Assembly (NCBI GenBank): GCA_009841225.1
Contig: VXMF01000048.1
Location: forward strand, 1 to 64,000
Direction: 5' to 3'
Source of the DNA: Terriglobia bacterium
Lineage (GTDB): Bacteria > Acidobacteriota > Terriglobia > Bryobacterales > UBA6623
DNA length: 64,000 bases
Positions 8,243 to 22,332 of this stretch are shown here, one piece after another (position 1 is the stretch's first letter; every line of letters begins with the position of its first letter). The notes beneath the pieces are model-generated. The model had not been told where the DNA came from. It was given only the letters and a program-made list of their open reading frames with translations, and ran no database searches. Position numbers and translations under genes: made by a program.

Positions 8243-8443
8243 CTGAATTCAGAGTATCAATGCGCCAAGCAGTTCCAATTGCCCGTTCAGGCTGTCGGTG
8301 GACACGGCGTGAGTCGATTGCGGAGCCGAATTGGGACAGACGATGAACTTCCACCGGAAAGCGAGGTGGAGGGTCGTCGGCGGTGTCGTTAGCGTCCGCC
8401 ACAGTTCACCGCGAACAACCTGCTCGGAGATCGGAGTGCCGTC

Positions 8444-8614
8444 CTAAACGGCTGCGGACTCGCCGAAGCTGCCATCAGCTGTGTCCTTGAGTGCGGTCGG
8501 TCGCATTCTTGCCTTGGAAGGGCCGTCCGTTCGCACCCCGGTGAACTTCCACACCCCATGCCTCAGCAGGGCGTTGATTTCGACGCGGGCTAAGGCCTCA
8601 GTTGTTTCGGTCAT
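8444..8614 (-). CDS. Short hypothetical ORF after toxin remnant
   Basis: This 56-codon frame starts with an ATG that overlaps the TGA of the FitB-like remnant (ATGA). It begins TETTEALARVEINALLRHG and ends soon after in a stop. The opening is loosely similar to the N-termini of type I restriction R subunits that often follow PIN toxin genes, but this is weak. It may be the beginning of a truncated gene. The rest of 8243-8443 shows nothing I can identify. Confidence 0.3.
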   Translation of the reverse strand: MTETTEALARVEINALLRHGVWKFTGVRTDGPSKARMRPTALKDTADGSFGESAAV

Positions 8615-8853
8615 GCGCCGTGCCAGGGGTCGAGCACATGGATCCCGATGTTCTCCAAATCCCGAATGTTGTGCGTTGCAACCGCCATGCCGCGGGAGCG
8701 AGCAATAGCAGCAATCTGTCCATCGGCCTGGGAAACTGGACGCCCAATGAGATGGCGCGCCGCGACAATCTCCGCAAAGGCGCGGGCTCCGTCGCTATCA
8801 AATGGCAACACTCGTCCGGCAAGAAAGTTATTGAGGGTACGCTCGCAAGCCAC
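8611..8853 (-). pseudogene. C-terminal part of a FitB/VapC PIN-domain toxin
   Basis: The 80-codon frame (GTG at 8853) matches the second half of FitB-type PIN ribonucleases: GRVLPFDSDGARAFAEI, then GRPVSQADGQIAAIARSRG with the conserved Asp, and HNIRDLENIGI ending in NPW-like DPWHGA. About 55 N-terminal residues, including the first catalytic Asp and Glu, are absent. An in-frame TGA lies three codons upstream of the GTG. The neighbouring frame reads DDMLWLASVPS, which resembles the PIN segment just before the break, so an internal deletion plus frameshift is likely. No antitoxin is recognisable upstream. It should be inactive. Confidence 0.75.
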
Positions 8854-9026
8854 AGCATGTCATCGGACTCAAAGTCCGCTCTTCTACGGGCCGTCGCTCG
8901 GGGATCATGGGTGTTCGCCAGTCCTCTTGCCCGACTTGGAATCACGAGAAAAACGGCAACTCTCCCGTGTTGTGGAATGGGAATCGCAGACTATGTCGTA
9001 CACCCGAAAAAAAGACGAGAAACTGC

Positions 9027-9081
9027 TTGACAGAATCAAGAAAGTTTGCTTCTCTGGGCACGGTTAAGATTCCGTTAAGAT
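9027..9081 (+). promoter_or_regulatory. Direct repeat with helical-turn spacing before the TonB receptor
   Basis: GTTAAGAT occurs at 9063-9070 and again at 9074-9081, an exact 11-bp period, giving TTAAGA-N5-TTAAGA. Tandem hexamers one helical turn apart are the binding pattern of OmpR/PhoB-type response regulators. A TTGACA sequence lies at 9027-9032, but no convincing -10 box follows at 16-18 bp. The repeat is 47-65 bp upstream of the receptor start codon. Confidence 0.45.
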
Positions 9082-9127
9082 CGCACAGGTTGTTCGATCG
9101 CAGGGAACACGCCGAAGGAGTCACGTC

Positions 9128-12100
9128 ATGACCAGAACATCGGGAATACTCAGAGCCCGTCTATGGCTCGGCTTCCTGGCTGTGGTGATACTCAGCAGCG
9201 GATCCGCTTGGGCCCAGGTGGCTCCAACTGCATCACTGGCCGGCACAGTTATCGACAGCTCGGGTGCCCTCGTGCCAGCTGCCTCGGTAAGCGTCACGAA
9301 TCTCGGCACGCAGTTCAAAAGGACCTCTACGACCGGCGCAAACGGGAGGTTCCTCCTTACCCTCCTGCCCATCGGGAGTTACAGTCTAGAGGCCAGCGCG
9401 CCCGGCTTTGCAACCTATCAACAGACGGGTATCACTCTAAACGTCGATACCACACACAGCCTCACCGTGGAGCTTTCGGTTGGCGAGGTTCTTGAGGTAG
9501 TCACCGTGACCTCCGAAGCCCCCATGACAGCAACGGAATCTGGCACTCTGAGCCGGGTCGTCAACACGCGGGTAGTGGAAGACCTTCCGCTCAATGGCCG
9601 CAATGTTGCCTCGATGGTTTACCTAGTTCCTGGCGTTGTCTACGGGACAAGGACCAGCAGAGCGGGCTACGCCAACACCGAGGAGGCGCTGGCGATCTCG
9701 GCGAATGGAGCGCGAGGGAGCGAGGTGGGCTACAAGCTCGATGGCGGCACTCACTCGGATGTCATCTGGCGCAACAACGCGATCTTCCCCAACCCGGACG
9801 CCATCCAGGAGTTCAGTGTTCAGACAAGCAACTACAACGCCGAATACGGCAACTCCGCTGGGGCCATCGTCAATGTCGTTACCAAGTCCGGAACCAACGA
9901 GTTCCACGGAGCGGCGTTCAATTTCCTGCGCAACGGAAGCATGAATGCGCGCAACTTCTTCGCTCGAAGACACGACAATCTGAAGCGCAACCAGTTTGGA
10001 GCCACTCTCGGAGGCCCCGTACTCGCTAACAAGCTGTTCTTCTTCGGCAGCTACCAGGGATATCGGATCAAGAACACCTCCTTGTCAAACACGGCATTTG
10101 TGCCCTCGCTGGAGAAGCGCCAAGGAGACTTTTCGGCACTAAGGAAGCAACTGAAAAACCCGTTCACCGGAGAATTGTTCCCCAACAACCGGATACCGGA
10201 GGCACTCTTTACGCCCGCCAGTGTGGGTCTCCTTGAATTCTTACCGCCGCCTCAGTCCCCGGACGGGAGAGTCTTGTTTGCTCGTCCAGATGACCGTGGC
10301 AATAACCAGTACCTGGGCAAACTGGACTACAATCGCGGGCTCCATATGATCTCGGGAAGCTTCTTCTATGTGCGGCACACGGAAGATGGCTGGGACGGGG
10401 ACAATACGCTTCTCAACTCGAGAATGGCTCAGCTGCAGACGACCAAGAGCTTCACTGGTCGATGGACTTGGACTGCATCCCCGAACCTTGTCAATACATT
10501 TATTGCCAAGACACTCTTCCTCGACTCATTCAACATTCGGACGACACCATTCGACCTTACGGATTTTGGCGTCAAGGTCGCGCCGACTGCACCTGAGCGC
10601 CGCGCACTCTTGCTCAGGATCACCGGATATGGGGGTTGGGGCAGCGGCTCCGGACCTCCAGGCAGTAACTGGATCCGGCAGAATCACGAATTCTCGAACA
10701 CGGTCAGCTACATCAAGGGAAAGCACTCGATACAGTTCGGGGCAGAGTTTGTTCCCCGGATCAAGTTCGAGTCGAACACGGGTTTCCGCCAAGCCCCCAG
10801 TATCGATTTCAGCGGTCGTGCAACCGGCGATGGTTTCGCAGACTTCCTGACCGGTAGAGCGGCGCGCTTCCGGCAGAGCGGTGGCAAAGCCAAGGACATG
10901 CGAGGTTTCGAGATGAGCTTGTACGTCCAGGACAAGTTTAATGTCGCCCGTGACTTTAGCCTTAACGTCGGACTGCGTTGGGACCCCTGGTGGCCCTACA
11001 CCGACGAACTCGGCCAGGTCACCGGTTTTCGTCCGGGACTTCAGTCGGAGCGATTTGGGAATGCTCCGCCCGGCCTTGTTTTTGCCGGTGATCGCAACTT
11101 CCCAGAGGCTGGTACGAACAACAATCTACTGAATTTAGCTCCACGGTTTGGATTTGCTTGGAACGTCGGCGGGAAGAATCGGACTAGCGTTCGGGGAGGT
11201 TATGGTGTCTTCTTTTCGCGGCTTCCTGGCGTCATGTACAACAACTTCGTCGAAGCAGCGCCGTTCTCTCCGTCGTTTACACTTCGGGACGTGGATTTCA
11301 TGGATCCGTATGGATCCAAAGGCGTACGAGATCCCTTCCCGGAGGCCTTTGCTCCCTACACTCCGCCATCCGACGTAACCTTTGCATCTGTCGGGAACAA
11401 TTTCACGATTCGTCCAGACTTCAAGACCGGCTACATCCAGCAGTGGAATCTTACGATTGAGCGACAGCTAGTAGCAGATCTCCTGTTGCGAACGGCCTAC
11501 GTGGGCTCTAAGGGCACGCGACTGGTCAGCACTGACCAGCTTAACCCGGCCATCTTTGGGGCTGGAGCGACCAACGGAAACACGAACAGACGACGCGCGC
11601 TGTATCCCAATTTCGCCTCTCTGGTCCAGCTTGGGAGTGACTACTTCTCGACGTACCACTCGTTGCAGGTAAGCTTGGAGAAGCGATATCGGGACAATCT
11701 GTCGTTCCTGACGTTCTACACCTTTTCCAAGTCCATCGATCAGGACTCCCGGGATCCTCAATTTAATCAGCCTCACAATCCGTTTGACCGAAGCGCGAAC
11801 CGAGGATTGTCCGCCTTCAATGTGCCACACAACTTCCGACAGTCGTTCATATGGGACCTGCCGAGGCTCGCGGGTCAACACGCGTTGATGAGGCACGTGG
11901 CGGGTGGCTGGAGCCTCACCGGCATCTGGACCTGGCAAAGTGGGAACCCGATCAGAATCCGAACCGGGAGAGATCGATCACTTGCAGGCACCAACGACGA
12001 TCGGCCGGATTTGCTCTCTGGTATCAGTCCTTTCTTGCCATCCAATCGACCTCGAGCCGAGGTTATTCAAGAGTACTTCAACACCGATGCCTTCACTCTG

Positions 12101-12358
12101 AATCCACTCGGCACGTTCGGCACCACCCCGCGGAACCTCATTCACGCCCCCGGGGATTTCAAAGTGGACGTGAGTCTGCAGAAACAAATTCCTCTTTCAG
12201 AAGGACACAGGCTTCAGTTTCGCGCTGAGTTTTTCAATATGCTCAACAACGTGAATCTGGGTAGCCCACAGCGGACTATGGTGAACAGGCGGTTCGGCAG
12301 GATCACGAGCGCAGGGAGCCCGAGAATCATCCAACTCGCGTTGAAGTACGTGTTCTGA
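9128..12358 (+). CDS. Oar-like TonB-dependent receptor with carboxypeptidase-regulatory domain
   Basis: This 1076-residue outer-membrane protein has a signal peptide (RLWLGFLAVVILSSGSAWAQ). It is followed by a CarboxypepD_reg-like beta-sandwich (about 35-115: LAGTVIDSSGALVPAASVSV), then a plug (VVEDLPLNGRNVASMVYLVPG) and a large beta-barrel ending in the aromatic LALKYVF. This architecture is expanded in Acidobacteriota, where such receptors are thought to import oligosaccharides or peptides; the ligand here is unknown. AGGAG lies 7 bp before the ATG. It stands alone, transcribed towards the convergent defence operon, with a possible response-regulator repeat upstream. The coding frame is intact. 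Confidence 0.92.
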   Translation: MTRTSGILRARLWLGFLAVVILSSGSAWAQVAPTASLAGTVIDSSGALVPAASVSVTNLGTQFKRTSTTGANGRFLLTLLPIGSYSLEASAPGFATYQQTGITLNVDTTHSLTVELSVGEVLEVVTVTSEAPMTATESGTLSRVVNTRVVEDLPLNGRNVASMVYLVPGVVYGTRTSRAGYANTEEALAISANGARGSEVGYKLDGGTHSDVIWRNNAIFPNPDAIQEFSVQTSNYNAEYGNSAGAIVNVVTKSGTNEFHGAAFNFLRNGSMNARNFFARRHDNLKRNQFGATLGGPVLANKLFFFGSYQGYRIKNTSLSNTAFVPSLEKRQGDFSALRKQLKNPFTGELFPNNRIPEALFTPASVGLLEFLPPPQSPDGRVLFARPDDRGNNQYLGKLDYNRGLHMISGSFFYVRHTEDGWDGDNTLLNSRMAQLQTTKSFTGRWTWTASPNLVNTFIAKTLFLDSFNIRTTPFDLTDFGVKVAPTAPERRALLLRITGYGGWGSGSGPPGSNWIRQNHEFSNTVSYIKGKHSIQFGAEFVPRIKFESNTGFRQAPSIDFSGRATGDGFADFLTGRAARFRQSGGKAKDMRGFEMSLYVQDKFNVARDFSLNVGLRWDPWWPYTDELGQVTGFRPGLQSERFGNAPPGLVFAGDRNFPEAGTNNNLLNLAPRFGFAWNVGGKNRTSVRGGYGVFFSRLPGVMYNNFVEAAPFSPSFTLRDVDFMDPYGSKGVRDPFPEAFAPYTPPSDVTFASVGNNFTIRPDFKTGYIQQWNLTIERQLVADLLLRTAYVGSKGTRLVSTDQLNPAIFGAGATNGNTNRRRALYPNFASLVQLGSDYFSTYHSLQVSLEKRYRDNLSFLTFYTFSKSIDQDSRDPQFNQPHNPFDRSANRGLSAFNVPHNFRQSFIWDLPRLAGQHALMRHVAGGWSLTGIWTWQSGNPIRIRTGRDRSLAGTNDDRPDLLSGISPFLPSNRPRAEVIQEYFNTDAFTLNPLGTFGTTPRNLIHAPGDFKVDVSLQKQIPLSEGHRLQFRAEFFNMLNNVNLGSPQRTMVNRRFGRITSAGSPRIIQLALKYVF

Positions 12359-12397
12359 TCACCTCCGGACAGTCAGTACACGCAACCAGTTGGCCTT

Positions 12398-12425
12398 GGG
12401 CCGAGCCGGATTTTCGGTTCGGTCC
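12398..12425. terminator. Possible bidirectional terminator hairpin
   Basis: GGGCCGA at 12398 pairs with TCGGTCC at 12419 (one G-U pair), extended inside by CCG/CGG around a GATTTT-type loop. It lies 40 bp after the receptor stop and between convergent genes. There is no strong T-run. The rest of 12359-12627 shows no gene I can support. Confidence 0.35.
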
Positions 12426-12627
12426 AACGCCAGCGGAAGCAGGTCGGTACCAACATCCTTGAGCTAGGGAAGCCGGTTACCCAGCTCCCCGAGCAGTTCT
12501 GCTGACGCTAGATGTCCGATCCACCGTGATGAGGGTCTCAATGCCAAGCCGTCGTCGTCGGCAGGCTACAGCAGGGGACCATTCGCGGTACTCGCAAGCC
12601 CAATAAGGTTCGCGAACGGATCGGCCA

Positions 12628-13812
12628 TCACTGCCTCACAACGAGTGACGCCGAGCTTGCGTCATATCGGTACTGAGTAATGGTTCCCTCGCGGATCTTC
12701 TCGACTGCCTCGTCTATGGCGTCGAGTGGCGCGAGAAACCACTCGCGCGGCACGACGGGATTGCCGAAACGGTCCGCGATTTCGATGTCAAGACGTGCGG
12801 GACCGAAGATGCGGTGGATCAGCTTCTCGAGCTTAGTCCGGTCGATATTGTAGAGACTGTAAGTGGCGACGATCTCGACCTCCGCCATCAGGAAGGTAGG
12901 ATCCAGCCGAGCGCCGGCGATACGCGTCTCCACCTTCGCGGTCGTGACGCCGATCTTATGGACGAGATCACGATTCTCGGCGACGAAGGGAATATCCGCC
13001 TTGCTCCGCAGCACATAAATGGTACCGCTTGCCTCGTCGCCGTCCGCTGTTACCTCGGCGAATAGGGGGCCCGCCGATGCCTCTAGGATCCGTCTGCCAG
13101 TCTCGTCCTTGTGGAGCGCGCGTTGCAGCGAACGTCTGAGCATGTTGCTCTCCGTGGCGTTGTCGAAGATCACGCGCAGCCGCGCGTCCCGGTCGCCGTA
13201 TCGCTGCGTGAACTCTTCACCTACCTCCGCCACATAGGCCTTCTGGCCGCCCACGATGAAGAACCGGCCGGACTCGATGTCGGACTGGATGCCCAGGGGA
13301 CGGGTCTCACGGAGACCGGCATCAAGCTCTTTCTGCACTTGCTCGAAGAGCGGCCGGAACGTTTCGAAGTCCTCGCACTTGCGACGGGTTGCGATTTCCT
13401 CGGCGGCACGCTTCTCCGCGCTCGACCGCACATGACGAAGCTCGCCGATGTCCGGCACCCCGGACTCGACGCCAAGCTCGGCAAGCAACGCGTCATCGTC
13501 CATGCCGTCCGGGGACGCGGACTCGTGGAGATTGCCAAGCAGTCCCTGATGGTCGAAATGGTTCAGGAGCGTGCGGCATTCCTCCTGATTTCGCATACGG
13601 TCCAGGCGCACCGCATAGAGGCGTTCGAAGATGTTGCCCTCATGATCGTGGCGTGGTGTGCGGCCATGCGTCTCGAAGAAACGCTGGATCTCCTCGAAGC
13701 CCGCAATGATCCGCTCCTCTCGCAGCGTGCGACTCGCTGGCTGTCCGGGTTCTACAACGATGCCGAGTTCGGCGAGCAGGGCGTCGTCCTCGTCTGAGAA
13801 TTTCCTATCCAT
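12628..13812 (-). CDS. GIY-YIG (T5orf172/Mug113-type) nuclease of defence cassette
   Basis: In this 394-residue protein the C-terminal third is a GIY-YIG domain of the T5orf172/Mug113 type: TIYVLRSKADIPF (about 265), then HKIGVTTAKVETRIAGA with the conserved Arg, and DRTKLEKLIHRIFG with the likely catalytic Glu. The YIG tyrosine position reads His (VHKIG). The domain ends with the family's PREWFLAPLDAIDEAVEKI. The first 250 residues are charged and helical with repeated DDALLAELGV-like stretches (near the start and near residue 105), perhaps protein-interaction helices. It is the last gene of a four-gene operon, and its ATG overlaps the helicase stop by 8 bp. The expected activity is DNA cleavage, presumably directed by the helicase. 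Confidence 0.85.
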   Translation of the reverse strand: MDRKFSDEDDALLAELGIVVEPGQPASRTLREERIIAGFEEIQRFFETHGRTPRHDHEGNIFERLYAVRLDRMRNQEECRTLLNHFDHQGLLGNLHESASPDGMDDDALLAELGVESGVPDIGELRHVRSSAEKRAAEEIATRRKCEDFETFRPLFEQVQKELDAGLRETRPLGIQSDIESGRFFIVGGQKAYVAEVGEEFTQRYGDRDARLRVIFDNATESNMLRRSLQRALHKDETGRRILEASAGPLFAEVTADGDEASGTIYVLRSKADIPFVAENRDLVHKIGVTTAKVETRIAGARLDPTFLMAEVEIVATYSLYNIDRTKLEKLIHRIFGPARLDIEIADRFGNPVVPREWFLAPLDAIDEAVEKIREGTITQYRYDASSASLVVRQ

Positions 13813-15850
13813 CGACGGCCTCGGCCTTCATCCGGACGAGGAAGGCGACGCCTTCCGCCATCCGTTGCTCCCACGCATCCTGCGACGTGATTGACGGCAA
13901 GCGGCCGCGCTCATGCTTGAACCTCAGTGCACGACGAGCGAGGTCTCGCGCCTCCTCCGGCGTAAGCTGGATCTTCTTCGCGGTAATGACGGCGGCGACC
14001 TGTTTCAGGCTCTCCTCGCTCATCGTCTTGGCTAGGATGGCGTAGGCCTCGCCAAAGGGGTTGATCCTGTCGATGAGGTCGATGTCCAGATCGCGAACGT
14101 CCATGGCGAACTTCCGGACGCCGTCGATTAGCGCGGTGCTGCCATTCGTCTGCGCTTCAAGATCGTCGAGCGCTTTCTCTTTCGCTTTCTGGGTCAAGTT
14201 CAGGGCGGCGATGGCGTGCTGACGCACCGCCTCCCGATCTTCTTCGGAGAGGTCTGGGTAACGGTCCTTTACGATCTTTCCCATGCGAACCTGGGTCAGT
14301 TCCTCGGGTACCAGTTCCTCGTCGAAGAGCCCACGCTCGACGGCAGTCTTGTCCTGTGCAAACGCGGCGATCACCTCGTTCAGGTCCTCCCGGCAGATGC
14401 GTTCAGCATCCTTGCCCTTTGGCGCCGTTAAGCCCTTGATCTCGATGTGGAACTGGCCGGTATTGTGATTGAAGCCTACATTGCACTTCTCCGGGTCGTA
14501 GCCTTCCTCGCCATAGTCGGTGCCCTCGACGGGACCGCTTTCCGGCTTCTTCGGAGTGAAGTTGAAGCGGGGCGCGAGCACCTGCTCCATCAGTAGGCTG
14601 GCCGCGATGGCCTTGAGAGTGTCGTTCACCGCCTCAGTGACTGCCTCTTCCGAGGCGTCGGGCTCGGCGATCAGGTTTGTAAAGCGAGCGCGGGTCTTGC
14701 CGGGCGCGTCACGCGTTGCGCGCCCGATGATCTGGACAATCTCGGTCAGGCTTGACCGGTAACCAACCGTCAGCGCGTGATCGCACCAGACCCAATCGAA
14801 GCCCTCTTTGGCCATACCGAGGGCAACAATGATGTCGACATTATCCCGGTTGTTCATTCGCTCCGAGTCTCTGAGCGCGGCCGCCACCCGCTCCCGCCTG
14901 CCCGGGTCGTCGTCAACGAGGTCGGCGATCCTGAGGATCCGGCCCTTGGGGGTCTTGACAAGTTGGAATCCAGTCGCCGGATCGGCGCCCTGCCATTCAC
15001 CAAGTTCCTCGATGATGTGCTCGACCTCCCGAATCTTGTCCTTCGTGCTCTCACGCGAGTTAACGTTGGGGATGTGGACGATCGTCTTCTCATTGGGGTC
15101 CAGCACCCGGAGAATGTCGTCCGCATAGTTGCCTGTGTAGAAGAAATAGCCGATGTCGAGTTGCTTCAGATGCTCGTAGCCGTTGAGCTGCTCGTAATAC
15201 GTGTAAGTTACGGTCTCGAACTTCGCCTCGTCATCGGGCATGAGCACAGGCTCGGCATCGCCCCGGAAATATGATCCGGTCATCGCCACAATGTGCGACT
15301 TGTCGCGCGCGATGATCTGTCCAACATGCTCGCCAAGCCGGTTGTCGGGATTGGCGGAGACGTGGTGGAACTCGTCGACTGCGATCAACCGGCCATCAAA
15401 GGCGCCCGCACCGAAGCGGTCGACGGCGAACCGGAAAGTGGCATGCGTACACACTAGGATGTGGTCGTCGCTGTCGAGAAACGCCTTCACAGAATTCACC
15501 TTGCCGCCGTCCGTCCCCGGCGCGTTGCATAGGTTCCATCTTGGGGGAACACTCCAGTCGGCCCAAAAGCCGAACTCGCTCAGTGGTGCGTCGTCGAAAC
15601 TCGCGCCAATGGGCCTCTCGGGGACGACGACGATCGCTTGGCGGAGACCTTGGTTGTGCAACTTGTCGAGCGCGATAAACATCAGCGCACGGCTCTTGCC
15701 CGATGCCGGCGGCGACTTGATTAGGAGATACTGCTCCCCGCGCTTCTCCCAAGCTCGTTCCTGCATCGGGCGCATGCCGAGTTCGTTGGAACTCGTGGAT
15801 TTGCCGCTACAGGCGTAAGGGACCGACACGGATGGGATGGTTTCATGCAT
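13805..15850 (-). CDS. DExH-box helicase/ATPase of defence cassette (type III Res-like)
   Basis: This 681-residue superfamily 2 helicase is of the kind found in restriction systems. Walker A is PPASGKS (about residue 45), Walker B is DEFHH (about 157), motif III is MTGSYFRGD, and motif VI is EIVQIIGRATRD in the second RecA lobe. Upstream of motif VI, IIVALGMAKEGFDWVWCD is typical of these enzymes. The C-terminal 300 residues are helical without a recognised nuclease motif, so cutting is probably left to the GIY-YIG partner. I prefer the ATG at 15850, which gives an 8-bp overlap with the preceding gene, matching the next junction; an upstream in-frame start at 15874 exists. ATP-driven translocation or unwinding of target DNA is the expected role. 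Confidence 0.88.
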   Translation of the reverse strand: MHETIPSVSVPYACSGKSTSSNELGMRPMQERAWEKRGEQYLLIKSPPASGKSRALMFIALDKLHNQGLRQAIVVVPERPIGASFDDAPLSEFGFWADWSVPPRWNLCNAPGTDGGKVNSVKAFLDSDDHILVCTHATFRFAVDRFGAGAFDGRLIAVDEFHHVSANPDNRLGEHVGQIIARDKSHIVAMTGSYFRGDAEPVLMPDDEAKFETVTYTYYEQLNGYEHLKQLDIGYFFYTGNYADDILRVLDPNEKTIVHIPNVNSRESTKDKIREVEHIIEELGEWQGADPATGFQLVKTPKGRILRIADLVDDDPGRRERVAAALRDSERMNNRDNVDIIVALGMAKEGFDWVWCDHALTVGYRSSLTEIVQIIGRATRDAPGKTRARFTNLIAEPDASEEAVTEAVNDTLKAIAASLLMEQVLAPRFNFTPKKPESGPVEGTDYGEEGYDPEKCNVGFNHNTGQFHIEIKGLTAPKGKDAERICREDLNEVIAAFAQDKTAVERGLFDEELVPEELTQVRMGKIVKDRYPDLSEEDREAVRQHAIAALNLTQKAKEKALDDLEAQTNGSTALIDGVRKFAMDVRDLDIDLIDRINPFGEAYAILAKTMSEESLKQVAAVITAKKIQLTPEEARDLARRALRFKHERGRLPSITSQDAWEQRMAEGVAFLVRMKAEAVDG

Positions 15851-16709
15851 GGGAAGGACTGAGCCTCTGGTCAAGTCGGCGAAGGAAAAGACGTGCGGTC
15901 ACGAGCGAAACCTGAAGCCTGAAGCTCGCATCTTCTTCTTCGGAGAGGCCCGGGTGTCCACCATGGGGGTGCATTCTGCTCATTAGCCCCTGAACGTATT
16001 GCGGCTTTTGGTTGTTGGGATTCCACTCGTTGTAGTCGGCAAGCAGGAACGGCGGCTGAAGGCCGCCAAGATAATCTCGTTTCGCCTTGCTGTCTCCGCT
16101 ACCTGTATAGCCCAGGCTGGCAGCAACTTCGTTGAGATAGCTCTCGTAGAAGTTTCGCAACTCTCCGTTGGCCGATGACCATTCTCCGCGACTGAACGCT
16201 GATACCGCGTGCTTCAAATGTCCCTTCGCAATGTCGAACCCGTGTCGATCCAACAAGAGCACGACTTCGCTTTCGGCTTCCCGAAAGTCGAGTTCGGGAA
16301 CACCCGAAGGCAACATTCGGACGAGATGAAAGGATGTCTCGGTTTGCCCGCTCTGACAATAATCTTCTGGGTTGGCCTCACTCTGGGCCGTGCAAATCTC
16401 AAAGCCATCAAATCGTAAGCCCGCAACGAGTTTTCTCCATGCAGCCGAACCTCTGTGGTCCTGCGGCGCCGAAATTGCGATCTCGACCAAGGCGCGGCTG
16501 AGATCCACTTTTCCACCCTCCGTCAGGACCTTGATTCTTTCCTCACAGGCGATGCGAGCCAAATCCGCGACTCGCGACGATTTGCTTGAAGAGCTGCACC
16601 TACCCGCTATCCCCCATTGCACTTCCAGTAATTCCATGTCGCTGTGTGAGCGGAAGCTCGAGATGACCTCGGCAGCAGCGACGATGGTCATCCGATTCAA
16701 TGCGGTCAC
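15843..16709 (-). CDS. Unknown cassette protein with Abi-like C-terminal region
   Basis: This 288-residue protein has no family name I can assign. It starts with GTG at 16709, overlapping the methyltransferase stop by 4 bp (GTGA), and overlaps the helicase start by 8 bp. The N-terminal 140 residues are mixed alpha/beta. The C-terminal half is helical: HLKHAVSAFSRGEWSSANG, ELRNFYESYLNEVAASLGY, then HPGLSEEEDASFRLQVSLV. That pattern recalls the C-terminal domain of abortive-infection proteins and HEPN-like folds, where a His-containing loop precedes a last helix. No catalytic site can be named with confidence. Its fixed position between modification and helicase genes suggests it is a working component, possibly the specificity or sensing subunit. 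Confidence 0.7.
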   Translation of the reverse strand: MTALNRMTIVAAAEVISSFRSHSDMELLEVQWGIAGRCSSSSKSSRVADLARIACEERIKVLTEGGKVDLSRALVEIAISAPQDHRGSAAWRKLVAGLRFDGFEICTAQSEANPEDYCQSGQTETSFHLVRMLPSGVPELDFREAESEVVLLLDRHGFDIAKGHLKHAVSAFSRGEWSSANGELRNFYESYLNEVAASLGYTGSGDSKAKRDYLGGLQPPFLLADYNEWNPNNQKPQYVQGLMSRMHPHGGHPGLSEEEDASFRLQVSLVTARLFLRRLDQRLSPSHA

Positions 16710-19459
16710 GCTGCCCCCTCCCGTGTGGTCGTGTCGACATAAAGCTCGAAGAGCTTCTCTAGGCGCTCCGTGTCGTTTCGGAAGCGGCGACCAATGTAGA
16801 TGCGCTCAACGACCTCGTCGTTACGCTCATGCGCACCGCGGAGGTTGTCGGGCATTCCGGTCCGGTCGTAGAGTTGGGCGATCGTAGCCGGGAAGTGAGC
16901 TTCGCGCGCCAGCAGGATGTTCTCTGCGCAAGCCGTAAGATCGGCTCTGTTCTTCGTCGTGAGCGACGGCACGGGGAACGTGTTCCAGCCGAGAGTATTG
17001 GAATACCTGAAGCGGGTTTCCAGCTTGCCGCAGATCGTGGCAATCCAGACAAGATGAAGCCGCGAAGCGGCCAGGGCCATGTTCCAGAGGGGAGCGTCGT
17101 AAAGGGCGAATGCGAGATCGCTCACGATCGCTCTTTGCGGCAGTAGACCCACCGGGAGATACTGTCGCCCTTCTGAACTTACCTTCGGCATGATGAGCGT
17201 ATGTCGCTCAGCCACTGACTGGATCTGTCGGAATCGATGCGGATAATCGGAAGCGGGTCTTGTTTCGGCTGCCTTACTGGACGCTCGAAATTCACGCACC
17301 CGGTCGAACCGCCGAGAAAACTCGGCGATCTTTCGGGCTTCGGCCGCCTCGTTGTCTTCTACCCAAATGCAGAACCTCTCAAGTCCCCGAATATACTCTG
17401 CTGCACCCAAGTAGGGCCGAACGTACCTGACCGCACCTTCGTGTTCCGCCTCGATGTGCCTCTTTTCGCTAGAAGACAGGACAAGATTGCCACCGTCCGT
17501 AGGCTTATTCCCCCAGACCATGGGTGCCCGGTCTATAGGGGTCTTCGGAATTGCCCTGACGATTATGTCGGGCCCGGAAACAAGATAGGCATTGATGTTC
17601 TCCGTGTTGAGGACGGACACCTCACCGTCTTCGGCATTGGAGAAAACCGATCTAAGCTTCGGCACCTGCCTAGAAATGCCTACGATAACAACGGTGACTC
17701 CGGCATTGTGGCTCGCCAAATTGGCCCACTTGAATGAAGTATGGGCAAAAGTCACGACATGGCCGGTAGAAAAAATCAGAGGCCACAGGATTGGTACCTG
17801 TTGACCCTGGCATATAGAATTTGTCGAGACGAAGGCAGTTGAGGCTTGAGTTCGCATCCCGTAGTGTGCAGCCTTCATAAACCATGCTGCGACATAGTCC
17901 AGAGATTTCCATTTCCGCGTGTGTACGGCGAAGATTCCTTCAAGGTCGGACTTTTGGGCTCGCGATTGCCAAGTGGAACCAACATACGGAGGATTACCGC
18001 AAATATAGGTTTCGCCGCCCTCGTTCTCGAAGTCTATCTCGGCTTGGTCGAGCGGCGTTGCAAACAAGTCATCGGCGGTAAGCTTGACACCGGTCCCGGT
18101 CGGTGGGCAGATGTCCAGCCAGTCGAGCCGCAGCGAGTTGCCGCAGGTAATCCAGTTCATGGCGTCCAACGGCAGGAACTCCGCTAGCGCTTCCCGTTGG
18201 CCACGATAGAGCACGTCGCACTGGTATTCCGCTATTACGAGGGCGAGGCGGGCAATCTCAGCCGGGAAATCGTGCAATTCGATACCCCTAAAGTTGGTTA
18301 GAGGAATGTCCGACCTGCGCCCGCTTTCGCGTCTCCTCTGGTTGATCTCCGCCTCGATCGCCCGAATCTCCTTGTAGGCGATCACAAGGAAGTTACCAGA
18401 ACCGCACGCGGGATCGAACACCCGTATACGGGCCATCCGGTTGCGCAGGTTCAGGAGCTTGCGAGAACTGGTCCCAGCGTCTTCCAGTTTCTGGCGGAGA
18501 TCGTCGAGGAACAGCGGATTAAGCACCTTCAGGATATTCGGCACGCTGGTGTAGTGCATGCCGAGCGCGCCGCGCTCCTCGTCGTCCGCGACGGCCTGGA
18601 TCATCGAGCCGAAGATGTCAGGGTTGATCTTCTTCCAGTCGAGGTTACCGATGTGGAGCAGATAGGACCGGGCGATCCGGCTGAACCGGGGCACCTCCGT
18701 CAAGTCCGAGAAGAGCCCTCCGTTCACATACGGAAACGAACTGGCCCAGCGGGGGATGTCGGTTGCCTTCCGTGCGTCGGTATCTGTGTTCATCGTACGG
18801 AAGATCTCACCGATCACGACGTGGGTGTTCGAGCTGTCGGCTGCGCTCATCCGTTCGATCGTGTTCGTGAAGAGGGCCGAGACATTGAAGATATCGGTAT
18901 CTTCTGCAAAGAAGCAGAAGATGAGCCGCGCCATGAAGTGGTTCATTTCGGAACGACGATCCGCAGAGCCCCACGTCGGATTCTCCTTCAGGAGCTCGAC
19001 GTAAAGCCGGTTCAAGCGTCCGGTGGCCTTGATGTCGAATGCGCTCTCGCGGATCTGCTTGACGGTCGTGATACCGGCGAGAGGCAGAAAGAAGCCGAAG
19101 TGCTCGGGGAAATCTGAGTAGTGACAGACGATGACGTCGCCGCTGTTCAGATCTTCGGCGTGAAACTCCCTTCCGTCGGTGGCGAGAACGAACTTCGCTC
19201 TCGCGCGTGATGTTGCGGGACTGGCTTTGAGCGCTGCCAGAGTATCAGCCGCCTCGCCTTCAGCGCAGACCTTGATGTGAATGTTGCTGCGCTGGAGCAC
19301 GCCGCCGAGGTCGGAACTGTTCGATGCGCCGGAACGCAGCCGCTTGACCGTGGTGGCCTTGTTGCCGAAGGACTGAAGGAACTCGAAGGGAAACTCCCCG
19401 CCCTCGAAAGGGCATTCGGCGAGCGCGGATACCGCTTCCTCGATCTCGACGGCGTTCAT
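16706..19459 (-). CDS. MmeI-like/Eco57I-like N6-adenine DNA methyltransferase
   Basis: This 917-residue class I SAM-dependent DNA methyltransferase carries motif I DPACGSGNFL (about 347) and catalytic motif IV NPPY (about 488), as expected for N6-adenine methylation. The N-terminal 300 residues resemble the MmeI N-terminal and helical-spacer regions (FPFEFLQSFGNKATTVKRL, FMARLIFCFFAEDTDIF). The C-terminal 350 residues, with ALYDAPLWNMALAASRLHLVW and LGWNTFPVPSLT, look like an MmeI-type target-recognition domain. No PD-(D/E)xK nuclease motif was recognised at the N-terminus, so unlike MmeI it may only modify. It heads the methyltransferase - X - helicase - GIY-YIG operon and would protect self DNA. 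Confidence 0.9.
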   Translation of the reverse strand: MNAVEIEEAVSALAECPFEGGEFPFEFLQSFGNKATTVKRLRSGASNSSDLGGVLQRSNIHIKVCAEGEAADTLAALKASPATSRARAKFVLATDGREFHAEDLNSGDVIVCHYSDFPEHFGFFLPLAGITTVKQIRESAFDIKATGRLNRLYVELLKENPTWGSADRRSEMNHFMARLIFCFFAEDTDIFNVSALFTNTIERMSAADSSNTHVVIGEIFRTMNTDTDARKATDIPRWASSFPYVNGGLFSDLTEVPRFSRIARSYLLHIGNLDWKKINPDIFGSMIQAVADDEERGALGMHYTSVPNILKVLNPLFLDDLRQKLEDAGTSSRKLLNLRNRMARIRVFDPACGSGNFLVIAYKEIRAIEAEINQRRRESGRRSDIPLTNFRGIELHDFPAEIARLALVIAEYQCDVLYRGQREALAEFLPLDAMNWITCGNSLRLDWLDICPPTGTGVKLTADDLFATPLDQAEIDFENEGGETYICGNPPYVGSTWQSRAQKSDLEGIFAVHTRKWKSLDYVAAWFMKAAHYGMRTQASTAFVSTNSICQGQQVPILWPLIFSTGHVVTFAHTSFKWANLASHNAGVTVVIVGISRQVPKLRSVFSNAEDGEVSVLNTENINAYLVSGPDIIVRAIPKTPIDRAPMVWGNKPTDGGNLVLSSSEKRHIEAEHEGAVRYVRPYLGAAEYIRGLERFCIWVEDNEAAEARKIAEFSRRFDRVREFRASSKAAETRPASDYPHRFRQIQSVAERHTLIMPKVSSEGRQYLPVGLLPQRAIVSDLAFALYDAPLWNMALAASRLHLVWIATICGKLETRFRYSNTLGWNTFPVPSLTTKNRADLTACAENILLAREAHFPATIAQLYDRTGMPDNLRGAHERNDEVVERIYIGRRFRNDTERLEKLFELYVDTTTREGAA

Positions 19460-19462
19460 CTA

Positions 19463-19741
19463 TCAGCCCATGTCCGCACCGAGGTTACGCGACTTGGCTC
19501 GGCAATACCAGTGTCGAGCACTGTTCCGCTTCCTGGGAATGCCAACGGTACCGTCAAAGCTGATACCACCCCGCCCTTCTTCTTCTGATTGTGACAACGA
19601 GATCTGGGAGAGAATCGCTGCCGGGGCGTATTGGCTCCATGCATCTGCCACCTCGTCGTCTAGTCCGAGCGCCTCGTCCTGCACGCCGTTGGCTTCCACC
19701 GCAGCTCTCTCGAGCTCATCGAGCCGGTTGTCAAGGGCCAT
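19463..19741 (-). CDS. Small hypothetical ORF upstream of methyltransferase
   Basis: This 92-codon frame ends 3 bp before the methyltransferase ATG. Its first 55 residues (LDNRLDELERAAVEANGVQD, ALGLDDEVADAWSQY) look like a real helical protein. The remainder looks non-coding, so a 3' frameshift is possible. No Shine-Dalgarno sequence is visible before the ATG. It might be a small regulator or a decayed gene start. Confidence 0.35.
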   Translation of the reverse strand: MALDNRLDELERAAVEANGVQDEALGLDDEVADAWSQYAPAAILSQISLSQSEEEGRGGISFDGTVGIPRKRNSARHWYCRAKSRNLGADMG

Positions 19742-19846
19742 CTAGGAAGGTGGTCATTGTCGTGATGGGACAACTGATCTGGGATCGTCGGCTTAGTAGT
19801 CATTTGGGTGCCAGCCGGCCGGTTCAGTGGTCCCGCTGAGGGGACC

Positions 19847-19933
19847 TCAGTGGGGGGAATTCGAAACTGACCCGATCATAGCGGACCGTTGGGAACGGGA
19901 CTGTCCCACGGTATTCGCGTAGATCACTAACAT
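19847..19933 (-). pseudogene. N-terminal stub of a FitB-like PIN toxin
   Basis: An ATG 11 bp after the FitA-like remnant opens with MLVIYANTVGQS, close to the PIN toxin start 'MLVIDTNVVSE', but with the catalytic Asp replaced by Tyr. Only 28 codons remain before TGA. GAGGCGG precedes the ATG. The rest of the toxin is missing, and the flank towards the methyltransferase operon (19742-19846) contains no recognisable gene. Confidence 0.5.
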
Positions 19934-19943
19934 TGTTACCGCC

Positions 19944-20187
19944 TCATTCCAAGCGAGGCGGATCACACGTCAACTCGCACGGCCACGGTTCCAGATCAAC
20001 GTCATTGAAGGGCTTGAATCGTTCTTGGATTGCCGTTCCTAGCCCCTCCACCCGAGCGGGCCCCTCATCAACCACGTCGGCTAGTATCAACCGTGCCTCC
20101 TACTCCATCAATCAGCTGTTGGCGGATGTACAAACAAGGGCGAAGTCCAACTTCGTCTTCGAAGTTGCGGATCGTAATGCTTGCCAT
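19944..20187 (-). pseudogene. Frameshifted FitA-type ribbon-helix-helix antitoxin
   Basis: Starting at the ATG at 20187, MASITIRNFEDEV is the classic FitA/VapB ribbon-helix-helix strand and first turn. The frame then shifts, and the continuation in the next frame reads LMExEARLILADVVDEGPAR (x marks an amber codon), then AIQERFKPFNDVDLEPWP and DPPRLE before TGA. This matches the full FitA layout, including its C-terminal toxin-wrapping tail. Total length is 244 bp, as expected for an 80-residue antitoxin. The lesions are one frameshift near 20145, an in-frame TGA and an in-frame TAG. It does not appear in ORF calls because no frame is long. Confidence 0.75.
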
Positions 20188-20731
20188 TGCGACAACCTCG
20201 CAATACGAATCCTATACGACGACTGTGTTGCGATCGAGACTGCCTCCCGTGCATCCGCTCCGGAACGTTGAAATTGCCGGTGTCTCCATCTGCATCTGCG
20301 AGTCCCGCAGCTTGCTCGGTTGGGTCGGCACGATGCCCGCGGGATCGACTTCGGAATGGTAGCGACCGTCGGCGGAAGTGGGATACGCTGTGCAAGCAAG
20401 CCCGCCCGACACTGCCGATCCGGGCATTCCCACATGGTGTTGCCGTTCCATCAAGGCATCCTGGCTCAGCGATTCATGTGGCTACCTCGGTAGCGTCATC
20501 ACTTGGATCAAATTCGAGACTGTTCTAGGAGACCTCCGCGACTGCATCCCAAGAATCGGCGATTCCCCTCGAGCTATTTCTTCGCCGATCTTGATGTGGG
20601 CGAGGTGACATGCGCCGGCAAAGAATCAGCCGGACAGTGAGACCAAAGCGCCCTCCTAAGCATTGCGGAAGCTGGTACCATAGCCGGTGCGGGTGGCGAT
20701 ACGTGCCCCAAGGCAGAGTGGAGGCGACGCG
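20188..20731. other. Intergenic region without recognisable gene
   Basis: This 544-bp stretch lies between the decayed antitoxin and the PLD nuclease gene. A minus-strand frame at 20212-20454 (80 codons) has no recognisable motif, and no tRNA-like fold, repeat or IS end was seen. GGAGG at 20720-20724 is the ribosome-binding site of the following gene. Confidence 0.5.
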
Positions 20732-21937
20732 ATGCTCATCACCCGGGAGAACATAGTCCATTGTTTTTTACAAAACCTTCTGTGGGCAAAGGAAATCGAT
20801 CTCGCGACGGCATGGATGACCCCTAACCCAGGTATTAATGCATTGCGGCGTCGGCCACGTGACGTTAGACTTCGCGCGGTGGTTGGTTTAGCAGATACAA
20901 TTAGTGATCCAAAGGCATTGCGAGATCTGGCTGATCTGGGCCAATTGCGTACGCCTAAAACAATTGAAGAGAGTCGCCGATTCCATCCAAAAGTCTACAT
21001 TTTCCGAGGTGAAAACAAGTCCGTTGCTTGGATCGGAAGTGCTAATTTCACGGACAGTGGATTGGGGCAGAACGAAGAAGTTCTGCTCGAAGTTGAGGAC
21101 ACAGCAGCTACGGACCTTTGGTTTAATCAACTGTGGGGCAGGTGCGATCTACTCGACGAGAGTTCCATCAATCACTACGAGGGTTGGCGAAAGCTAAATT
21201 CTTCCCGGCCAATGATCGTGCCTTGGTCTCGGGTTACGATCGATTTGCTTTCCCCAATCCAGCTGCTGAAGAAGGTCGACAGTTGGAACAGCTATGTCGT
21301 GGCCTTGAAAGAATGCGATTGCTGGTGGCAGCGATGGAGCGGTCATAATGCCAAACAACAATGGTCAGTTCTCGGATACAGCTGTAGCTGGAGCGAGACA
21401 ATTCGGAGGTTGCATAGTCTCATACAGAAAAACTGGTACTTGCTCAGCACAGAGGACCAGTCTCAATTGCTCGGCCTGAAAAAGAATTGTTCCGCGTTGC
21501 TCGGCAGCATGAGAGGGCCGGCCAGACAGGCCGTATTTGTTGATTGGCGAGAGGACATTGAGGAGATTGTTCTGAAAGTCCTCGTAGCTAAGGATGAAAA
21601 GTTTCCCGATGTAGCCGTTGATTCCTACGAGTCGCTGCTGAAATGCAAAGGAGTCAGGCGTAGACCTGGCTTAGGCCCAGGAATTGCAACCCGTTTGCTG
21701 ACACTTGCGAGACCGGATCGCTTCGTGTCGTTAAATGATAAATCGATGGTGGGATTAGAATGTTTCTTTAACTTTCCAGAAAATGCATTAAGTGATCCGC
21801 AAAATTACGGTCATTTATTGGAAAAAATATACAATTTGAAATGGTATTCTGATGCGATTCCAATTAGTGAACAAGAACGAGAGATATTTGGAATGCGCTC
21901 AGCCTTATTGGATAGCTTTTTTTACGATGCTAGATAG
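20732..21937 (+). CDS. PLD-like (HKD) nuclease with helix-hairpin-type C-terminal region
   Basis: In this 401-residue protein the N-terminal half carries a single phospholipase-D-type active-site motif, FHPKVYIF (His and Lys at about 84-88) followed by IGSANFTDSG (about 101-110), as in PLD endonucleases; one copy implies dimerisation. The C-terminal region contains GLGPGIATRLLTLARPDRFV (about 310-330), which resembles a helix-hairpin-helix/DNA-glycosylase-like DNA-binding element. I chose the ATG at 20732 because GGAGG lies 7 bp before it. The gene is visibly more AT-rich than its neighbours, especially 21740-21940, suggesting recent transfer. It lies beside the methyltransferase/helicase cassette but is transcribed away from it. 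A defence or mobile-element function is inferred. Confidence 0.8.
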   Translation: MLITRENIVHCFLQNLLWAKEIDLATAWMTPNPGINALRRRPRDVRLRAVVGLADTISDPKALRDLADLGQLRTPKTIEESRRFHPKVYIFRGENKSVAWIGSANFTDSGLGQNEEVLLEVEDTAATDLWFNQLWGRCDLLDESSINHYEGWRKLNSSRPMIVPWSRVTIDLLSPIQLLKKVDSWNSYVVALKECDCWWQRWSGHNAKQQWSVLGYSCSWSETIRRLHSLIQKNWYLLSTEDQSQLLGLKKNCSALLGSMRGPARQAVFVDWREDIEEIVLKVLVAKDEKFPDVAVDSYESLLKCKGVRRRPGLGPGIATRLLTLARPDRFVSLNDKSMVGLECFFNFPENALSDPQNYGHLLEKIYNLKWYSDAIPISEQEREIFGMRSALLDSFFYDAR

Positions 21938-22332
21938 AACAATTATACACCGATTTATCCGAGTGATGTAGTTCGTTAAGAGCGTGCGTTCGGTAAAGCG
22001 TCTTCGCCGATGGTCCCCGGAACACGACATAACTTACAGCGCCGCGACTCCGCTGGCAGCGGTAGGAAGAAGAATTTCCGAATGTCGCAGAGCTTGCCCG
22101 CGATGATTCCGCACACGAGGATTGTCGTGAGATCCGAAGTGACCAAGGCCACCCTTCGCTCGCCGGGGGCTGGAATACCTTCAGCATGTTAATCGAAGAC
22201 TTCGGAATCGATCGTAATGAAGAGTCGTTGACGCGCAGCACTACGCAGGCTTCGGAAACGGATCTGAAGACTGAGAATCACTTGTCGTGGGTGGCCAGTG
22301 GAGAACCGCAGGCTTCAGGCACACTAGAATGA
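21938..22332. other. Gap with an open frame but no convincing start
   Basis: The only long frame runs from just after a TAG near 22068 to the TGA at 22330-22332, reading for example NVAELARDDSAHED and WNTFSMLIEDFGIDRN. Its only ATG is at 22188, late in the frame. It ends exactly where the dapF start codon begins. I do not recognise the sequence. It may be the degraded end of a transferred gene. Confidence 0.4.

Follow-up and report, generated by a model that had tools for sequence, protein, structure and literature searches.

Four overlapping genes on the minus strand of a Terriglobia bacterium contig (VXMF01000048.1) raise the question whether they form a new four-gene restriction system or a known system that carries an added gene. 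They lie in a stretch of 64,000 nucleotides that was analyzed as a whole (the window) and encode a DNA methyltransferase (MTase), a 288-residue protein termed X here, a DExH helicase and a GIY-YIG nuclease. An original prediction, made from the sequence alone, had described them as a four-gene system that matches no known gene content. Our analysis places this supposedly unknown cassette in a known but neglected family of restriction-modification (RM) systems, with X as an exchangeable addition. The best explanation, which we consider probable, is a horizontally acquired split, type I-like RM operon of the DnmA-YeeB-YeeC type with an accessory gene in a cargo slot.

The core genes resemble the DnmA-YeeB-YeeC cluster

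The four predicted open reading frames (ORFs) are intact, and their positions, strand, lengths and overlaps were verified (Table 1). The MTase stop and the start of X overlap in the sequence GTGA, and the helicase and GIY-YIG genes share 8 bp. Since homology of the helicase begins only around residue 9-12 of the TTG-started ORF, ATG 15850 is the better start, and with it the predicted 8-bp overlap with X is obtained. A promoter and terminator scan gave scores at the level of shuffled sequence and was uninformative.

The MTase contains all five domains of the MmeI family (N, hel, Mtase, target recognition domain (TRD) and C; Pfam, E to 2e-115) and aligns with MmeI of known structure (5hr4, E 3.6e-140). 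Both catalytic motifs, DPACGSG (349) and NPPY (489), are intact. A search of residues 1-180 for the PD-ExK pattern [DE]-x6..18-[DE]xK found none, in line with the prediction of an MmeI-like enzyme without a visible nuclease. The helicase has DEAD/ResIII domains with the motifs PPASGKS (Walker A), DEFH and QIIGRATR; no nuclease domain was matched, again as expected. The last protein belongs to the MUG113/T5orf172 family, which agrees with its earlier description as Mug113-type; its matches to PDB sequences (myosin light chain, telomere-binding protein) were regarded as fortuitous. The catalytic motifs of helicase, GIY-YIG protein and MTase are almost invariant among 74-90 homologues, and the GIY-YIG residues Y266, K286/G288, R297, E329, H333 and E357/W358 are kept in at least 80 of 81. 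These domain assignments support the view that modification, translocation and cutting are divided among separate polypeptides.

A plasmid record that labels a helicase homologue "restriction/modification system component YeeB" pointed to DnmA (YeeA)-YeeB-YeeC of Bacillus subtilis. DnmA is an MmeI homologue without nuclease motif that methylates GACGAG; homologues of YeeB and YeeC are found downstream of DnmA in many bacteria, and a type I-like RM system has been proposed (PMC7261158, PMC9973331). In the cassette, the helicase gene and then the T5orf172/GIY-YIG gene likewise follow downstream of the MTase gene, all on the same strand. With the clusters of B. subtilis and Vibrio crassostreae it shares the identical order of three genes for an MmeI-like MTase without nuclease motif, an SF2 helicase and a T5orf172/GIY-YIG protein. 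As judged from these assignments, the core is the already described DnmA-YeeB-YeeC cluster, a putative type I-like RM system, and the claim that the gene content is without match had to be given up. The difference lies in the extra gene between MTase and helicase, whereas in B. subtilis yeeB lies directly downstream of the MTase gene.

Other known systems fit less well. PADLOC, a check proposed together with the original prediction, returned a type IIG match for the MTase (4e-284), which on its own would be classified as such, and no match for X. MTase, TRD and spacer domains match along the length of MmeI. However, type IIL/IIG enzymes carry the PD-ExK nuclease in the MTase polypeptide, and here the motif is absent and cutting would fall to the separate helicase and GIY-YIG proteins. 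Type I RM (hsdMSR) has a separate HsdS and an HsdR in which nuclease and helicase are fused; here the TRD is part of the MTase itself (PF20466), and no nuclease domain was matched in the helicase. Neither PglZ/BrxC (BREX) nor DrmA/DrmB (DISARM) was found in the five island proteins scanned, and the matches of the MTase to the PglX and DrmMI profiles are weak and partial (PglX, 27.7 bits against a cut-off of 500). As a side observation, YeeB-type helicases in the plasmid records H2-H6 and H8 (e.g. NZ_CP085157.1) are annotated as "pseudomurein-binding repeat-containing protein", a label that apparently stems from a marginal PMBR match (E 2.6e-05 here).

The junction between methyltransferase and helicase is a cargo slot

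For a survey of the extra gene we collected loci with a helicase homologue in genomes, on plasmids and on viral contigs, measured the intergenic gaps and counted a junction as filled above 150 bp. The three core genes stand in conserved order in 82 loci. The MTase-helicase junction is filled in 41 of these and the helicase-GIY junction in none (sign test, 9e-13); after near-identical helicases were collapsed, the slot was filled in 40 of 80. The sole exception to this rule is a rearranged operon (L023) with about 1.6 kb between the helicase and GIY-YIG genes and the MTase gene downstream. Thus, gene order across genomes, which the original prediction had named as a check, holds for the core, while X does not regularly co-occur; with the core already published, the four-gene claim fails by the refuting conditions set in that prediction. 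In most relatives the slot contains other genes or nothing, and the reading as a four-gene system was dropped after this survey.

Cargo genes are codirectional with the operon and mostly start at, or overlap, the MTase stop. Clustering yielded about two dozen families. Among the recognized ones are RhuM, RelB-type antitoxins with their toxins (RelBE), PtuA with PtuB (Septu), SLFN_AlbA_2, YhcG/DUF1016 and Fic (SoFic), and further KilA-N, DUF3800, CoiA-like, PDDEXK_4 and PLD-like proteins (e.g. L123). By sequence assignment, the recognized families are largely defense or toxin families.

X occupies the slot in the window and in L007, L008, L028, L046 and L111. Near-identical helicase loci differ in their cargo. 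L007 carries X and L009 PtuAB, with helicase DNA 94.1% identical; L008 (X) and L010 (PtuAB) are 93.6% identical, and L077 with RhuM is 92-93% identical to L075, L076 and L085, in which the slot is empty. On a helicase tree of 81 rows, a quick tree with long branches, slot content requires at least 31 changes; counted only as empty or filled, it requires at least 17. Because of these exchanges X is very unlikely to be a required core subunit; it is facultative and interchangeable cargo, dispensable for the core by position and exchange.

The gene overlaps indicate co-translation, and together with the identical position of X in five further loci they are what one would expect of a true fourth subunit of a distinct restriction system, for instance an adaptor between MTase and helicase. 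Yet two loci with helicase DNA about 94% identical to that of X-bearing ones carry PtuAB instead, half of the slots are empty, and relatives of X are found without any core gene nearby. We regard a fourth subunit as highly improbable.

Several slots deserve mention in their own right. At L009:6018-7891 and L010:2871-4750, a complete Septu system (PtuA and PtuB) is enclosed by the MTase gene on one side and the helicase gene on the other. A family of 263 aa without Pfam or PADLOC match recurs in the slot, with RhuM as the next gene in most cases (L013:6210-7001, L045:6210-6992 and four others). The cargo at L102:276-1109, without Pfam match, has an RDFRNYIH motif typical of HEPN proteins and might be a further HEPN cargo. 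In L046 (4326-6825) X and a Schlafen AlbA_2/HATPase protein stand in tandem within one slot, and upstream of this operon a VapC gene overlaps the MTase start.

The recognition domain is exchanged out of step with the cargo

Between near-identical operons, MTase identity drops to chance-like values over approximately nt 1500-2400 and remains high in the flanks. Since the drop is confined to this region, the TRD is exchanged, too. L013 and L014 have different TRDs and the same cargo, and L007 and L028 differ in the TRD while both contain X; hence, TRD exchange is out of step with cargo exchange. The MTase of L028, from an alphaproteobacterial metagenome-assembled genome, matches that of the window (16706-19459) through the TRD (78-89%). 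Such a shared TRD makes the same target site likely, and the two MTases probably share their recognition site.

In open-access text we found no description of a slot in DnmA-type operons, and the published survey of DnmA neighborhoods names only unspecified "uncharacterized" neighbors (PMC9973331). We consider the exchange slot in the DnmA-YeeB-YeeC family, in which complete defense systems are swapped separately from the TRD, to be new.

The C-terminal half of X is likely HEPN-like

The description of X as an unknown protein stood up to our searches, with no significant match in Pfam, PADLOC, NCBIfam, PHROGs or PDB sequences. X matched nothing in a phage collection, and a scan of viral contigs gave no match with the single sequence and three with an alignment. 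Fifteen members of the X family, including that of the window, were aligned, and the C-terminal half is the conserved part. Most of the aligned relatives are located outside RM slots. Relatives on plasmids neighbor genes for AbiEii, reverse transcriptase, a restriction endonuclease and HEPN/Toprim proteins, and one on a viral contig (L112:5830-6651) is flanked by a tail-type gene on one side and lysis-type genes on the other, where phages typically carry accessory genes.

An AlphaFold2 model built from seven sequences reached a predicted local distance difference test (pLDDT) value of 78.3 and a predicted template modeling score of 0.72; a first run with four close sequences (pLDDT 51.5) was not used. 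In the model the N-terminal half forms a separate alpha/beta domain. The best structural neighbors of residues 154-288 are HEPN proteins (1o3u, Z 7.9; 4nqf, Z 7.5; sacsin HEPN, Z 7.2), followed by Csm6' (Z 6.1) and the HEPN toxin 7ae9 (Z 6.0). Foldseek listed 1ufb (probability 0.91) and 4nqf (0.89) at low significance, and its viral library gave no usable match. The residues R245-x6-H252 fit the HEPN pattern Rx4-6H, stand directly before the last helix (257-283) and are present in all slot members. The model suggests that the C-terminal half of X is likely HEPN-like, and X would probably represent a new, HEPN-like cargo family.

Control genes are frequent in RM operons. In keeping with this, and with the separate N-terminal domain, X might be a regulator, or a control protein similar to an antitoxin, that holds restriction back in the establishment phase. 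Library profile searches, however, found no helix-turn-helix or other regulator family in X, and operons with an empty or a Septu-filled slot do without it. There is little to recommend such a role for X.

Proposed working of the operon and role of X

By analogy to MmeI and DnmA, the MTase would mark host DNA with N6-methyladenine at an asymmetric site that its TRD determines. Domains and conserved residues suggest that at unmodified invading sites the MTase may provide the helicase with its specificity subunit; the helicase would then translocate and bring the GIY-YIG subunit to cut. X would be co-translated with the operon from its slot without being needed by it. Most likely X is a second-line effector, namely a HEPN-like RNase that would stop growth once the first line is inhibited or overwhelmed by a phage, in the manner of PrrC in EcoprrI.

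We infer the RNase activity and the guard role from precedent: PrrC, TgvAB and BREX back-up effectors. The effector PrrC is a HEPN RNase (PMC3710099, PMC12707154). TgvAB, encoded in the type I cluster of V. cholerae VPI-2, protects alone and adds to restriction (PMC11411939). As here, prrC and tgvAB place a second defense function inside an RM operon, although their hosts are type I hsd operons instead of a DnmA-YeeB-YeeC operon; furthermore, X is of an unclassified family and lacks the ABC ATPase of PrrC. BREX-type loci similarly recruit varied nucleases, HEPN and Schlafen modules to a core (PMC12839542). In contrast, the cargo described here is limited to a single junction in an operon of three core genes, and no BREX core proteins were found.

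Several points weigh against this proposal. It is built on sequences, a predicted structure and precedent, and what would tie X to the RM proteins is gene position and precedent. The HEPN matches are weak: all Foldseek E values are 0.001 or higher, and Z stays under 8, a range in which common helical arrangements can produce matches (up to 13 for helical bundles). R245 is absent in seven distant relatives of X, which keep H252. Short remnants alone occupy the slots of L041, L074 and L081. Finally, neither restriction nor a phage effect was seen for the cluster in B. subtilis (PMC9973331, PMC7261158).

The latter result favors a relic in which only the MTase works, as has been argued for DnmA of B. 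subtilis, and in which X and the nuclease are silent and merely carried along. We consider this unlikely for the cassette. All four reading frames are intact, the catalytic residues of helicase and GIY-YIG protein are conserved across loci, and the island was gained after the split from a relative with 95% identity. In V. crassostreae, deletion of the homologues led to higher sensitivity to some phages, according to the work as cited in PMC9973331. It is tempting to speculate that lack of cargo might help explain the missing phage phenotype of the three-gene version in B. subtilis.

Alternatively, X could be a plain hitchhiker, a stand-alone defense or selfish gene that exploits expression of the operon without a functional tie to the RM proteins. 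The slot takes unrelated complete systems (PtuAB, RelBE), and homologues of X exist on their own. On the other hand, the repeated use of one slot by codirectional genes that overlap the MTase stop suggests a benefit of co-expression, an argument that does not separate a sensor from an independent effector. A hitchhiker is a real possibility, although we lean against it. Because complete independent systems (Septu, toxin-antitoxin (TA) systems) reside in the slot, a guard role for X cannot be assumed. The far-reaching version of the second-line effector proposal remains doubtful, namely that the junction is a dedicated plug-in port for such effectors and that X founds a new family of HEPN-like RNases which guard the RM complex and fire when phage anti-restriction disables it. 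The slot itself provides a natural setting in which to ask whether genes embedded in RM operons act as guards or travel as passengers, and it offers a simple route to new effectors such as X, the 263-aa family and others.

The cassette lies in a strain-specific island

In most congeners only about 0.1 kb separates the M3 peptidase gene from dapF. The distance is 1.1 kb in G006, rises to about 4.4 kb in both G005 and G010, and reaches 14 kb in the genome of the window, where nested insertions fill positions 8275-22310. The older one (8275-12499), with a PIN fragment and a TonB-type receptor, is common to G005 and largely to G010. The younger one (12500-22310), with the cassette and a PLD nuclease, was found only in the genome of the window among those compared; it is absent from G005, in which the flanks are 95% identical. 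The closest relatives of the cassette are from metagenome-assembled Alphaproteobacteria (helicase, 91% aa identity), and a helicase match was obtained in 7 of 297 sampled genomes of the phylum, that of the window included. The insertion of the island is shown by alignment; horizontal acquisition of the operon is part of the best explanation given above. The predicted defense reading of the cassette is plausible. No tRNA was found in the window.

Table 1. Positions of the cassette genes and neighboring features in the window.
Feature	Position	Strand	Remarks
DnmA/YeeA-type MmeI-family N6-adenine DNA MTase, own TRD, nuclease motif absent	16706..19459	-	917 aa; domains, MmeI 5hr4 match
Protein X, slot cargo, C-terminal half HEPN-like in model, R245-x6-H252	15843..16709	-	288 aa, GTG start
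YeeB-type DExH helicase	13805..15850	-	PPASGKS, DEFH, QIIGRATR conserved; ORF list starts at TTG 15874
YeeC-type GIY-YIG (MUG113/T5orf172) nuclease	12628..13812	-	394 aa; conserved catalytic residues
Strain-specific island with cassette and PLD nuclease	12500..22310		absent from closest congener G005
PLD-family (NgoFVII-like) nuclease, island neighbor, outside cassette	20687..21937	+	domain match

The original prediction had further noted TA debris and a PLD nuclease in the neighborhood. For the former, a C-terminal PIN/VapC-like fragment is present at 8611-8853, but its PIN match (E = 0.0065) misses the Pfam cut-off. The PLD protein is real; it comprises 416 aa with an NgoFVII-like N-terminal domain, is encoded in a minimum of G+C content (about 0.51) and is a separate candidate nuclease.

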